From contig NZ_CP033878.1 in NCBI RefSeq assembly GCF_009690625.1, forward strand, positions 744,001 to 808,000: a stretch of 64,000 nucleotides of DNA, given 5' to 3'. Of the stretch, positions 41,376 through 49,739 are shown piece by piece. A model generated the notes under the pieces. It saw only the letters and a program-made list of their open reading frames with translations. It did not search any database and had not been told where the DNA came from. The translations under genes were made by a program, and so were the position numbers. The number at the start of each line of letters is the position of its first letter. Positions within the stretch are counted from its first letter, which is position 1. This DNA comes from Halorhabdus sp. CBA1104 (GTDB lineage: Archaea > Halobacteriota > Halobacteria > Halobacteriales > Haloarculaceae).

Positions 41376-42113
41376 TCACAGACGAGCAAGGTTCTGCCGA
41401 AGCTTGATGTTCGCTGTCATCAGTGCCGTCGCCGCCATGATGATGAAAACGACCTGGACGTGCAGGACGATTATCTGCTCGATGCCCAAAAGCGTGACCA
41501 GGGCAATCGCCGGTACGAACGCACTGAACGCAAGGACCGGCAGCAAATGGCGCAATAGGGTATCCAGCATCGTCCCCTGGACCATCGATCGGGAGAGTTG
41601 GGTACGCCCGTGCCAGTACCCGTAGGTCCCGAACGCGATCGCCCCGACCCCTTCCAGTGCGAGCACCGGTTGCTCGGCGATTCCGATCGCTTCCGCGGCG
41701 ATCGCCCCAACGACTGTGAGGCTGAATACCGCGACCAGGGGGCTCGGAACGACGCTCCCAGCCGTCCCACGATCACTGTCGGCGACTGTGCCTTGCCGGG
41801 CGATCAACTGCATCGTGAGTGCAAGCAACAGGACGAAGCCAAGAAATACCCCATCACGAACCGACGGGATCCCCGAGAGTACGATTTCGGCGATTCCGAC
41901 GATGCCATAGATCGCGGCTGCCCCGCCGACGAACCCGAGGTACGTCCAGATCGACGCTTGGGATGGAAGGTCGCTCGCGCGGCGATTCCACAGCGCGTAG
42001 ACACAGAACCGGACGCCTAACACCCCGATCAGGACGAAGCCGATGAAGTAGATGAACGTGAGGTTGGGGTTGCCGGCGATCTCTTGGAGGGCGAACGCGA
42101 CGTCACTCTGCAT
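41376..42113 (-). CDS. Seven-helix membrane protein coupled to a pseudokinase gene
   Basis: A 245-residue protein with about seven membrane helices and very short loops. I do not recognise the family. The last helix lacks a retinal Lys, so it is not a microbial rhodopsin. Its start lies 11 bp inside the end of the upstream pseudokinase gene, implying coupled translation and possibly a membrane partner of that protein. A conserved-looking GAIAFGTYGYWHGR lies before helix 6. The htr-rhodopsin pair is divergent on the other side of the pseudokinase. Confidence 0.7.
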   Translation of the reverse strand: MQSDVAFALQEIAGNPNLTFIYFIGFVLIGVLGVRFCVYALWNRRASDLPSQASIWTYLGFVGGAAAIYGIVGIAEIVLSGIPSVRDGVFLGFVLLLALTMQLIARQGTVADSDRGTAGSVVPSPLVAVFSLTVVGAIAAEAIGIAEQPVLALEGVGAIAFGTYGYWHGRTQLSRSMVQGTMLDTLLRHLLPVLAFSAFVPAIALVTLLGIEQIIVLHVQVVFIIMAATALMTANIKLRQNLARL

Positions 42114-43539
42114 GGGTCAACTCCTCGTGCACGGCCACGACGTCTCTGCGGAAGTCATTGATTGTTTCGTATCGGACCAGGGACCGTTTGGCCATCGCTT
42201 TCCCGACGATATCGTCGATTGCTCCAGGCACGTCGACTGACCTCGATGGGGCCGGCGGCTCGCCGTCTATCACTTGCTGGCGGATCTGTTCGAACTCACC
42301 CGACACGGGCGGCCGTCCGGTCAGGAAGCGATAGAGGACAGCCCCGAGTTGATAGATGTCCGTGCCGTGGTGAATCCGGCCGAATCGGCGATCGTAGTAT
42401 TCGGGGGCGGCATACCGAGGATCGAGCAGGGTCGCCGGCGTGACGTGCCAGCGATAGACGCCGAGCAAGCCGGGGTTGTCGAGGGAAGCGGTCTGCGGGG
42501 TCGCGCCAGCCTCTGTCGGGAACGCGACGTTTTCGGGATCGATCCCGCCGTGGACGACGCCATGCTGGTGAGCGTATTCCAGTGCGTCGGCCAGCTCGAT
42601 CGTCAGCGAGAGGGCGGCTGCGGGCTCGATCGGCCCACTCCGATCCGCCAGGGTCGCGTCGGAAGGATCGGTCCCAGCCCACGGCCGGGGCTGGCTCCCC
42701 CAATGGAACAGCCTAACGATACCGGAGTGATCGCCAATCTCGGCCCACTGATCGAGGGCCTCACCGAGATCTGGGGCGAACGAATCACTCTCGCCGGTCG
42801 GACGGTGAAACAACCGGATCGCCATCGCTCGTTCGACGCCGCTGTCCTCGGCCAGGACCCGTGCGATCTCCGCGTAGCGGCTGTGTTTGCGCCCCGAAAG
42901 GACCATCAGATCGTCGAAGCGGCTCTGTTCGACGATCGTCGTCAAACGACCAAAGAGCCGATTCCACTGTCGTCGCTCCCGTGCTTGTTCCGATCGCACA
43001 CCGGTGCTCGCTCGTGGTTCGTCGACGTCTTCTGGATTGTGTTCAGGCTCTAGGGGCTGGTCCGCATCTGGATGGCGCTGGGGGTCGGTCGGATCGATGA
43101 CGTCACGGTCCGGTTCGACCGATCGCGGGCCGAACATCCCTCCCGGTGGACGGACGCGGCCGACATCCTCGTGACGCGTGCTGCCGTCTCCCGATCCGGT
43201 CGGGCCACCACCCGTGGTCTCGTCACGGCGTTCCTGATGGGTCTCGTCGACGCGTTCCGGGAACTGTGAAGCGATGTAATCGTACGCGAGTTTCGCCTCG
43301 GCCCGACTCGAACCGTCGAATCGATCGGCCAACCGTCGCACGATCGATGGGATCGACTCCGGATCTGAGGCGGCAAGCAGACAGAGACCGAACGTCCCCA
43401 CGAGCCTGAGCTGTCGATCTTCATCGTCGAGAGCGCCCAACAGCACAGGGAGGTCTTTGACGCTTCCGGGAGGCGATGTGAGAATGTCCTCCAACACGTC
43501 GTTCGCTTCAGTGGCGTTTGCGTCGCCGCGTTCGGCCAT
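42103..43539 (-). CDS. HEAT-like repeat protein with kinase-fold domain lacking catalytic residues (pseudokinase)
   Basis: A 478-residue protein. Residues 10-100 are HEAT-like helices (LPVLLGALDDEDRQLRLVGTFGLCLLA), then a polar linker of about 100 residues. The C-terminal half has a protein-kinase fold: ALSLTIELADALEYAHQHGVVHGGIDPENV, APEYYDRRFGRIHHGTDIYQLGAVLYRFLTGRPP. Key residues are lost: VAIK reads MAIR, the HRD catalytic Asp is Gly (HGG), the following Lys is Asp, and DFG reads DNPG. Phosphotransfer is therefore unlikely and a scaffold or nucleotide-sensing role is inferred. The start 43539 skips an upstream 11-codon extension. It overlaps the 7TM gene by 11 bp. Confidence 0.85.
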   Translation of the reverse strand: MAERGDANATEANDVLEDILTSPPGSVKDLPVLLGALDDEDRQLRLVGTFGLCLLAASDPESIPSIVRRLADRFDGSSRAEAKLAYDYIASQFPERVDETHQERRDETTGGGPTGSGDGSTRHEDVGRVRPPGGMFGPRSVEPDRDVIDPTDPQRHPDADQPLEPEHNPEDVDEPRASTGVRSEQARERRQWNRLFGRLTTIVEQSRFDDLMVLSGRKHSRYAEIARVLAEDSGVERAMAIRLFHRPTGESDSFAPDLGEALDQWAEIGDHSGIVRLFHWGSQPRPWAGTDPSDATLADRSGPIEPAAALSLTIELADALEYAHQHGVVHGGIDPENVAFPTEAGATPQTASLDNPGLLGVYRWHVTPATLLDPRYAAPEYYDRRFGRIHHGTDIYQLGAVLYRFLTGRPPVSGEFEQIRQQVIDGEPPAPSRSVDVPGAIDDIVGKAMAKRSLVRYETINDFRRDVVAVHEELTHAE

Positions 43540-43683
43540 TTTTCTCTCCGAGTGGGCTACGTTCACACGCACCGATAATGACTGTTGGGGTGGCTGAGCG
43601 TCTATCGGCGTGGCGAACGCAGGTTATCACCGCTGAAAATCGGGTGCGGGCATTTACAGTATGGTGCCTCGTGAGGTCCGGTA

Positions 43684-45948
43684 ATGCCAGCAGACAACTC
43701 TGGATTGCTTCCGGCGTTTGTCCGCGAACGGTATACGGCGCGGCTAGGGGCCGCCCTCGCGTTCGCGATCGTGGTGATGCTCGCTTTCGGATTGGTCATC
43801 AGCGCACAGGCGACCGGGCAGCTTCGTTCGGATGTCGACCAGGATCTCACGACGCAGGCCAACGCCCAAGCGGCCCAACTGGACACGTGGGTGTCGGCGA
43901 TCAAGCAGGACGTACGGAAGACAACGCAACTGCCGGTCTTTGGGTCCGGCGAGACTGATCGCATCCGCGACCGCCTGACGGGAATGGTCGAGGGTAACGC
44001 CGTTCCCGACGACGTCGTTGCGGTCCACTACTTAGATACCGAGTCGATGGAGTTTCTGACGAGCTCCAGCGATGCGATGGTCGGTGTCAATCCGGCCGAT
44101 CAGGGCGCGGCCTTCGCGACTAACCCGCCCGCTTTCGACAGCCCGGACGACGTCTACGTCTCGGCGCCGTTTTCGGTCCCGGTTGTCGATCATCCGATCA
44201 TCGCCATCATCTCGCCGATCGAAGGCGCCGACGACCGCGCACTCGTGTACATGACTGACCTCGAAGCCCGCGCGAATGCCCTCTCGGCCGGGGACAGTAC
44301 GGAGACAGTCGTCGTAAACGACGCCGGCGAGTACGTTGCACATCCGAATACGAGCAAGATTCTGACCCAACACGAGGGCCATAGTAGTACGCTTTCGGCC
44401 GGTGAGTCGGAGTTCTCGCGGAATGGCGATATGCTCATGGGCGCGAGCAAGCTGACGAGCCAGGACTGGACAGTCATGGTTCATACGTCCGTCGAAGACG
44501 CCTACGCCGTCTCGAACCAGATCAACGCCGATCTCCTCGGGCTCGTGTTGCTCGCGATCATCAACCTCGGGTTGATCGGGGTGACGATCGGCTCGAACAC
44601 GGCCCTCTCACTGCGTCGCCTGGCCGGTCGTGCCCAGGAGATGGGCGAGGGGAACCTCGAAGTCGATCTGTCGACCGACCGTGAAGACGAGATCGGCACC
44701 CTGTACGTATCGTTCCAAAACATGCGTGATTCTCTCCGTGACAAAATCGACGAGGCCGAAAGCGCGACTGAAGCGGCCCAACAGGCCCGCGAAGATGCCG
44801 AATCCGAGCGGGCGGAGATGGAGGCTCTGTCCGCACATCTAGAAGCGAAAGCCGCCGCCTACGGCGACGTTCTCGACGACGTTGCCGACGGCGACTTGAC
44901 TCGGCGAGTCGACCCCGAAAGCGAGAACGAGGCGATGGAAATCGTCGGCACAGAGCTCAATGCGACCTTAGATGCCCTGGAGTCGACGATCGCAGACGTC
45001 GAATCCTTTGCCTCGGAAGTCGCAAGCTCTAGCAACACAGTCAGGCAAAACGCCGACCGCGTTAGCGACGCCAGCCGGCAAGTCAGCCAATCGATCGACG
45101 AAATTTTCGACGGCGCGAGCGAGCAAAGCGAGCGCTTGCGGGACATCGCCGACGAGATGGAGACGCTTTCGGCCTCGGCCGAGGAAGTCGCCAGCTCGGC
45201 CCAGGAAGTGGCCGCAACGTCCAGAGAAGCGGCCGAAGTCGGCGAAACGGGTCGAGACGCTGCCGAGGATGCGATCGAGGAGATGGGCGCGATCGAAGAC
45301 GAGACCGAACGGACCCGACAGGCGATCAACGATCTCGCGGCCGACCTCGAAGAGATCGGCGAGATCGTCGATCTGATCACCGAGATCGTCGAACAGACGA
45401 ACATGCTGGCGATCAACGCCTCGATCGAGGCCGCCCACTCGGGTGGTGGTGAAGGCTTTGCGGTGGTCGCCGACGAGATCAAGAGCTTAGCCGAGGAGAC
45501 AAAAGACGCGGCTGGTGACATCGAAGCTCGTATCGAGGCGATTCAGGAACAGGCCGACGAGACCGTCGAAACGATGGAGACGACGAGCGAGCGCATGGGC
45601 GAGGGCGTCGAGACGGTCACCGAGGCCGTCGAGTCACTCGAAACGATCGTCGAACACGCCGAGGAAGCCGATCGTGGCATCCAGGAGATCGACGATGCGA
45701 CCGAAGACCAAGCCAATACGGCCCAGCAAGTCATGGCCATGGTCGAGGATCTGACGGCGATCAGCCGCCAGACGACCGAGGAGGCAGATACCGTCGCTTC
45801 GGCGGCCGACGAGCAGACGGACTCGATCGCAGAAGTCTCCGAATCGGCGGGTGCCTTACGCCGACAGGCCGACGAGCTACAGTCCCTGCTCGATCGCTTC
45901 GAGGTCGCAGAGACGAACACAACCACTGCAGACGTGAGGGAGGACTAA
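43684..45948 (+). CDS. Methyl-accepting transducer (Htr-type) paired with sensory rhodopsin
   Basis: A 754-residue transducer. Residues 15-45 form TM1; about 45-285 form an extracellular Cache-like sensor; 290-312 form TM2 ([21 protein letters not shown]); HAMP domains follow ([30 protein letters not shown] and a second near 390-440); the MCP signalling hairpin has the tip [39 protein letters not shown]. The rhodopsin gene starts 3 bp after its stop, the standard htr-sop order, so it relays light signals through its TM helices to CheA/CheW and probably also senses a chemical outside, as HtrII does for serine. A CheW-MCP pair lies at 60-62 kb. Confidence 0.93.
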
Positions 45949-45951
45949 TCG

Positions 45952-46665
45952 ATGGTCGAATTCGATATTACGCTCTGGTTCACGCTCGGGACGCTGGGAA
46001 TGGCACTCGGAAGTATCGGCCTCGGGTACGGCTTGTTGGTGCTCCCATCGGAGTGGCGCCGCAGCTACGCGGACGTCGTCGTCGTGACACTCATCGCGAC
46101 AGTCGCCTACGGTCTGATGGCGCTTGGCATCGGTGATATCGGGGCCGCCAACGGAGCGACGGTGTCGCTCCCACGGTACGCCGACTGGCTGCTGACCACG
46201 CCGCTGCACGTGGTCTTCATCGCCGTCATCGCCGGTGCGGATCGCCGGCTGACGCTCACGGCTGCCGGCTTGCAAGCTGCGACGATCGTCCTCGGCTTTG
46301 CCGGGGCACTCGTGACCAGTCCCCTGAAAGAACTGTTCTTCCTCGCCGGGAGTCTGGTCTTCGTCATCGTCGTCTACTTGTTGGTCGTCGAGGCCGCAGA
46401 GACCGCCGATCAACAGGACGTCACGACCGCGGGGTTGTACCGGAAACTCCGGAACTTCGTGATCGTGCTGTGGCTGATATACCCGGTGATCTGGCTGCTC
46501 GCACCCACTGGGTATGGCTTCATGGACGCCGAGACGAGTTCACTCGTCATCACGTACATCGACGTCGTCGCGAAGGTCGGCTTCGGCCTCATCGCGCTGA
46601 ACGGCTTACAGAGTCTGCAGTCGTTTGGCGTAGACCGCCTCGGCCAGTCGCTTGCGGACGACTGA
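45952..46665 (+). CDS. Sensory rhodopsin (SRII/middle-rhodopsin-like)
   Basis: A 237-residue seven-helix retinal protein. Helix C reads P74-RYADWLLTTPLHVVF: R75, the counterion D78, W79, and F89 at the bacteriorhodopsin Asp96 (proton donor) position, so it is a sensor rather than a pump. Helix G has K208 for the Schiff base (DVVAKVGFG). Helix F has Y177 (LIYPVIWLL), matching the SRII Tyr174 position. The residue before the Lys is Ala207, where SRII has the signalling Thr204; this is as in middle rhodopsin (SRIII). His86 occupies the Leu93/PR105 colour-tuning position. It follows its transducer by 3 bp. Confidence 0.93.
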   Translation: MVEFDITLWFTLGTLGMALGSIGLGYGLLVLPSEWRRSYADVVVVTLIATVAYGLMALGIGDIGAANGATVSLPRYADWLLTTPLHVVFIAVIAGADRRLTLTAAGLQAATIVLGFAGALVTSPLKELFFLAGSLVFVIVVYLLVVEAAETADQQDVTTAGLYRKLRNFVIVLWLIYPVIWLLAPTGYGFMDAETSSLVITYIDVVAKVGFGLIALNGLQSLQSFGVDRLGQSLADD

Positions 46666-49097: not shown

Positions 49098-49739
49098 CTA
49101 GTCAGTCTCCTGTCGGTCGACCGGGCGCGGTGGGAGTCTGAGGTCCTCGATCGACGGGAGGTGTTTGACGTTGTAGACGAGGCGCAGGTGGTCCGTCTGT
49201 GGTTTCCCGACACAGGACAGCCGGATGCCCTGCTCGATGGCTTCCTCCGGCAGGATGTGGTTAACTGGTTGTGAGAGCTCTCCTTCCAGGACGGCGACGG
49301 CGCAGTTCGCACAGGCACCACCGCGACAGGAATAGGGCCAGGCGAACCCACGGTCTTCGATCGACTCCAGCAAAGGGGCGTCCTGGTCGACGGCGATTCG
49401 CCCGTACTCGCTCCCGTTGATCCCGGCCGCTCGTGATTTTTCGAACAGATCGGAGTCATCGAGACCCCAGCCCCGATCGACGATCGCTTCGTACTCGACG
49501 AACTCGACGGCCGTCCGCGCACCTGTCTCGGCTGGTGGGTCCGAGACGGCCGATTGGGCTTCGTACTCTCTTTCGAGGAGTGTCTCGTAGGCTGCCTGAA
49601 CACGACGGAACTGGGCGACTGACCCACCTTGGTCGGGGTGGGCCTCTTTGACACGCTCTCGGTACGCGTCGTGGATTCCATCTTGGGGTGTGCCAGGGTC
49701 GACGCCCAGTACCTCGAAGGGAGAGGGCACGCCGTACAT
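49098..49739 (-). CDS. J-domain / [2Fe-2S] ferredoxin fusion protein
   Basis: A 213-residue two-domain protein. Residues 5-58 are a J-domain (PFEVLGVDPGTPQDGIHDAYRERVKEAHPDQGGS...FRRVQAAYETLL) with the HPD motif intact. Residues 85-200 are a halo-type plant-like ferredoxin: an acidic stretch, cluster ligands in FAWPYSCRGGACANCAVAV and a fourth Cys in IRLSCVGKP, then LRLVYNVKHL. The ferredoxin part carries electrons; the J-domain usually stimulates Hsp70 (DnaK). The fusion suggests electron delivery or cluster trafficking coupled to a chaperone. Related fusions occur in other haloarchaea as far as I recall. Confidence 0.9.
   Translation of the reverse strand: MYGVPSPFEVLGVDPGTPQDGIHDAYRERVKEAHPDQGGSVAQFRRVQAAYETLLEREYEAQSAVSDPPAETGARTAVEFVEYEAIVDRGWGLDDSDLFEKSRAAGINGSEYGRIAVDQDAPLLESIEDRGFAWPYSCRGGACANCAVAVLEGELSQPVNHILPEEAIEQGIRLSCVGKPQTDHLRLVYNVKHLPSIEDLRLPPRPVDRQETD

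Follow-up and report, generated by a model that had tools for sequence, protein, structure and literature searches.

The gene at 45952..46665 (+) of the window, by which we mean the whole 64,000-nucleotide stretch of Halorhabdus sp. CBA1104 DNA that was analysed, encodes an SRII-class sensory rhodopsin of 237 amino acids with His and Ala at the two natural colour switches of the retinal pocket. It belongs to a clade of 28 opsins, all of which are directly preceded by the gene of an HtrII-type transducer. As the best explanation, to which we assign a probability of roughly 0.6, we propose that this opsin is the photoreceptor half of an SRII–HtrII phototaxis pair, which would absorb blue to blue-green light and would signal without the Thr204–Tyr174 bond.

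Sequence and structure of the opsin

The translated protein matched PF01036 (5.3e-50) and, as its best match in the PDB, SRII of N. pharaonis (NpSRII; 9.4e-40); with the PF01036 fold, Lys208, Asp78 and Asp204, it has the features of a type-1 (microbial) rhodopsin. Helices C and G align with those of NpSRII without a gap, in which the following residues correspond to each other: the Schiff-base counterion Asp78 (codon at 46183..46185; NpSRII Asp75, Asp85 of bacteriorhodopsin, BR), His86 (46207..46209; NpSRII Ile83, BR Leu93), Phe89 (46216..46218; NpSRII Phe86, BR Asp96), Tyr177 (46480..46482; NpSRII Tyr174), Ala207 (46570..46572; NpSRII Thr204, BR Ala215), and the retinal Schiff-base lysine, Lys208 (46573..46575; NpSRII Lys205), all on the (+) strand. 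An earlier note on this DNA had given the same reading frame and four of these residues (His86, Phe89, Tyr177, and Ala207), which translation and alignment confirm; its placement of His86 at the BR Leu93 position is upheld by the gap-free alignment of helix C, and the replacement of the signalling Thr by Ala207 is borne out in helix G. An AlphaFold model of the opsin, built from 32 relatives, had a mean pLDDT of 91.8, and its best Foldseek match was the SRII/HtrII structure 5jjn (TM 0.91/0.97, rmsd 1.4). The opsin of Halorhabdus salina is 96% identical to the window opsin.

Phylogeny and distribution

Related opsins were collected both from named genomes and from 391 Halobacteria genomes, and the opsin tree was computed with both switch sites masked. 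In this masked tree, the His sequences formed one clade of 28 rows (support 96/81), the sister of which (100/91) has Asn at the BR 93 site and Thr before the Schiff-base lysine; the two clades were joined at 99/100, and the link of this joint group to the NpSRII clade was weaker (82/84). The SRIIs of the NpSRII type and of the Halobacterium type have Leu, Ile, or Met at the BR 93 site and Thr or Ser before the lysine. The earlier description of the protein as SRII-like is supported by sequence, structure, and tree; the window opsin groups with SRII, not with SRI, BR, or HR, and also has no SRI-type Val-Pro after the lysine (AKVP). In canonical SRII, the 204 site holds Thr or Ser, which is bonded to Tyr174, and the window opsin keeps the Tyr but not its partner; because of this missing Thr204, we file the protein, as judged from its sequence, as a variant of the SRII clade and not as a canonical SRII.

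One member of the Asn/Thr clade (L075), the gene of which comes after that of a 774-aa HtrII, is by our own identification presumably the SRII of Haloarcula marismortui. The window pair resembles this SRII–HtrII system in the joint clade, in sequence (51% identity), in gene order, in the long HtrII with an ectodomain, and in contact residues, but has His/Ala instead of Asn/Thr at the switch sites.

His86 is conserved in all of the 28 distinct clade members and is encoded by both His codons across the clade, and a chance or one-off substitution is ruled out by this conservation. The residue before the Schiff-base lysine is Ala in 27 members and Ser in one, and Tyr is found at the NpSRII Tyr174 site without exception (28/28). 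The clade spans seven genera of Haloarculaceae including Halorhabdus, Halosimplex, and Halorientalis. When the 391 genomes were searched with the pattern D-W-x-x-T-T-P-x-H, opsin matches came from 23 genomes, which represent seven genera of one family, and no wider spread of His at the BR 93 site was found in this search of the class; the remaining seven pattern-matching genomes gave peptides such as DWRSTTPGH, which are not opsin-like. A plasmid search for the named relatives returned distant opsins only.

Some other opsins are also worth recording. L104 and L135 have Gln at the Schiff-base counterion (QW..ATP for DW..TTP) and Ala before the lysine, and no adjoining transducer was found for them. 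L094, L095, L106, L108, L120, L131, and L134 are SRII-like with Met at the BR 93 site and Ser before the lysine, and no transducer ORF was found within ~3 kb upstream of these genes.

The transducer gene and the receptor–transducer contacts

Directly upstream of the opsin gene is that of an HtrII-type transducer with 754 amino acids (43684..45948 (+)), which is composed of TM1, an ectodomain, TM2, HAMP (PF00672, 1.8e-11), and an MCP signalling domain (PF00015, 1e-35); its TM2 weakly matches the Htr2 TM2 domain PF17909 (0.0026). The transducer stop codon (TAA, 45946-45948) and the opsin ATG are separated by a 3-base gap (45949..45951 (+)) with GGAGG just upstream, and the two genes probably form an operon, as judged from this arrangement. 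A promoter scan gave no match of the sigma-70 type, a model that is uninformative for archaea. A protein-kinase-like gene (PF00069) at 42103-43572 (-) is divergent from the transducer gene.

The same gene order is found in all 28 members of the His clade, with a spacing of -4 to +3 nt. The Tyr199–Asn74 contact between receptor and transducer, a mark of SRII, is retained (Tyr at the NpSRII Tyr199 site in 28/28 opsins, Asn at the NpHtrII N74 site in 27/28 transducers). At other contact positions, the NpSRII Thr189 site is Asp in 24 of the 28 opsins, while the transducers have Gln at the NpHtrII E43 site (28/28) and Asp at the A63 site (27/28). Because Tyr199 and N74 are kept, with Thr189 replaced by Asp and E43 by Gln, the receptor–transducer interface reads as conserved with one contact remodelled.

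The transducer ectodomain (43795..44499 (+)) is predicted to adopt a double-Cache fold (model pLDDT 87.4). The best Foldseek matches of the model were the amino-acid receptor domains of Mlp24, Mlp37, PctA, and PctB (TM 0.67-0.75), and a profile match to a proline-binding dCache was also obtained (2.1e-4). HtrII of Halobacterium is a joint receptor for light and amino acids with a serine-sensing ectodomain, and the modelled fold suggests that the window transducer is likely to combine the two inputs as well.

In its genome, a single contig of 2.63 Mb, the window opsin is the only sensory opsin found, and the one other opsin (L001) is BR-like with Asp at the 96 site. For these only two opsins, the genome has two genes of the Brp/Blh type for retinal (G000:C1:58510-59355 and 695931-696803). 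It also encodes CheA and archaellins and gave ten strong matches to MCPs, and the machinery for retinal and for swimming is thus present. Also in the window, at 49098-49739 (-), an N-terminal DnaJ domain is fused to a 2Fe-2S ferredoxin domain.

Expected colour

The earlier note had called the position of His86 a colour-tuning site, and the literature agrees: BR 93 and 215 are named as natural colour switches, both less than 5 Å from retinal (PMC6197263, PMC7979833), and rank second and fourth of the colour-determining positions in the pocket (PMC6197263). The L/Q switch of proteorhodopsin likewise uses BR 93 for natural colour tuning (PMC7979833, PMC6197263), but with Leu or Gln in pumps, whereas His is found here in a sensor. 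The strongest shift to the blue comes from Gln at BR 93, and T204A in NpSRII causes a red shift of 8 nm (PMC6197263). In the His/Ala lineage, a polar residue would have been lost at the BR 215 switch while the other switch, BR 93, became His, and the loss of Thr and the gain of His could nearly cancel in colour. Since losing Thr would move the maximum by only ~8 nm towards the red, and polar residues at BR 93 mostly have a blue-shifting effect, the window receptor is probably blue to blue-green. For H. marismortui SRII, which has Asn/Thr, an absorption maximum of 468 or 485 nm is given, both values in PMC6450946. Our literature search found no reported effect of His at BR 93 (L93H/L105H). The unusual spectrum or photocycle suggested in the earlier note is plausible from the residues, but would belong to the whole clade and not to the window opsin alone.

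Proposed signalling without Thr204

Mutations of Thr204 or Tyr174 in NpSRII abolish negative phototaxis (PMC3274258), and canonical SRII output is hence not assured for the His/Ala lineage; indeed, the Thr204–Tyr174 bond is essential in NpSRII, and in this lineage the transducer must be triggered in some other manner. In the phototaxis pair that we propose, retinal on Lys208 would be isomerised by light, and helix F would move at the conserved contact face, where Tyr202 would face Asn of the transducer TM2 and Asp192 would be near Gln/Asp of the transducer. This movement would drive the HtrII transducer and, through CheA, the archaellum, and a small extracellular ligand would probably be sensed too by the transducer ectodomain. 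On helix G, the residue that gives the chromophore a polar partner in the other SRIIs, Thr204, is absent, and helix C has the polar His86 instead; the transducer might be triggered by another route or by Tyr177 and the movement of helix F without Thr. That signalling is possible with Ala at the 204 site is shown by SRI. Also, an HtrII-linked group (L103, L116, L118, and L125) has Ala before the lysine and Leu at the BR 93 site; on their sequences, these opsins form a further lineage in which the signalling site has neither Thr nor Ser, and their pairing of Ala with Leu means that Ala needs no polar residue at BR 93. The same four opsins (one Halobacteria genus group, f4 g44) have TTL for TTP in helix C, i.e., Leu at the BR Pro91 site.

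What His86 itself does is a further matter, and sequence cannot separate a colour compensator, a Schiff-base proton donor, and a neutral change from each other. Tentatively, the light trigger may be rerouted via His86 on helix C, or via a proton from His86, possibly with a pH-sensitive or fast photocycle and with the transducer interface unchanged; we rate this well below an even chance. Slightly less probable is that His86 donates a proton to the Schiff base from the cytoplasmic side, which would lead to fast M decay, quick cycling, and perhaps pH-dependent kinetics. The site is indeed on the face of helix C between the Schiff base and the Asp96 position (Phe here), and the latter is Tyr (14), Phe (9), Leu (3), or Val (2) among the 28 members and thus acidic in none of them. 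By making helix G stiffer, Thr204 prolongs the M state, and the NpSRII cycle becomes >100-fold faster when T204A is combined with other changes (PMC11992208); Ala in place of Thr would accordingly free helix G, with fast M decay and quick cycling of the receptor as a result. Sensory receptors, however, need a long-lived M, and the sister clade has at this site Asn, which is unable to donate a proton, suggesting that polarity and not proton transfer was selected first.

Alternatively, His86 and Ala207 might have been inherited from one ancestor and matter little today, in which case the colour and kinetics would be those of an ordinary SRII. His at the BR 93 site has a single origin on the tree, and its covariation with Ala is hence without statistical weight (a test of His–Ala covariation has no power, as His was gained once); furthermore, about one-sixth of the aligned positions are invariant across both sister clades anyway. 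The two clades are separated by fixed differences at six of 228 positions (14, 17, 45, 86, 203, and 207), among which both colour switches fall; the chance of this is ~6 in 10,000, a value that was computed post hoc and in a situation where all six differences may share one branch. We nonetheless consider this neutral reading to be unlikely, given that both sites are within 5 Å of retinal with their high colour ranking (PMC6197263) and are fixed even though opsins of different genera share roughly 50-60% of their residues.

It is very improbable that the protein is a middle rhodopsin or resembles SRM/SRI, and that its output differs from that of SRII (e.g., green light, attractant, or attenuation), since the tree puts the window opsin with SRII and far from SRI and the SRM-like L157 of H. 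marismortui, with both of which it shares Ala before the lysine, and since its full-length transducer includes the MCP domain that is lacking in HtrM (PMC6450946). Ala is the normal residue before the Schiff-base lysine in BR, HR, and SRI (PMC6197263). The middle-rhodopsin features that the earlier note had seen in the protein did not hold up, and this commonness of Ala, the full HtrII partner, and the tree speak against a middle rhodopsin. Middle rhodopsin of Haloquadratum walsbyi is an SRII-like opsin of the sensory type with Thr at the 204 site and is not known to have a transducer; the absence of a cognate transducer is a criterion of middle rhodopsin, and the window opsin has its transducer 3 nt upstream. 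In the work of Sudo from 2011, middle rhodopsin reportedly keeps the critical Thr, and its Ala201 and Met211 are said to be transducer-contact sites; the claim of the earlier note that it shares the Thr-to-Ala change is probably a mix-up.

Comparison with known systems and significance

The proposed phototaxis pair is similar to SRII–HtrII of N. pharaonis (5jjn, 1h2s; L105) in its fold, counterion, Tyr174, Tyr199–Asn74 contact, and non-acidic Asp96 site. Unlike NpSRII, which has Ile83 and Thr204, the window opsin has His and Ala, and the Thr189/Glu43 contact of N. pharaonis is changed to Asp/Gln; also, HtrII of N. pharaonis has 534 amino acids without the ectodomain that is present in the 754-aa window transducer. 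A transducer of ~750-790 amino acids with an ectodomain is shared with the Halobacterium-type pair, in which SRII, nonetheless, has Leu/Ser or Leu/Thr at the switch sites and forms a separate clade.

In the literature that we searched, there was no earlier description of His occurring naturally at this major position for colour tuning. The accepted view of SRII signalling, which comes from one species, has the Thr204–Tyr174 pair at its core, and here is a natural clade that lacks Thr204 and the members of which, from seven genera, are coupled to normal HtrII transducers. The function of even one His/Ala member would thus bear on whether the Thr204–Tyr174 bond is general in SRII or whether there are other ways of signalling.
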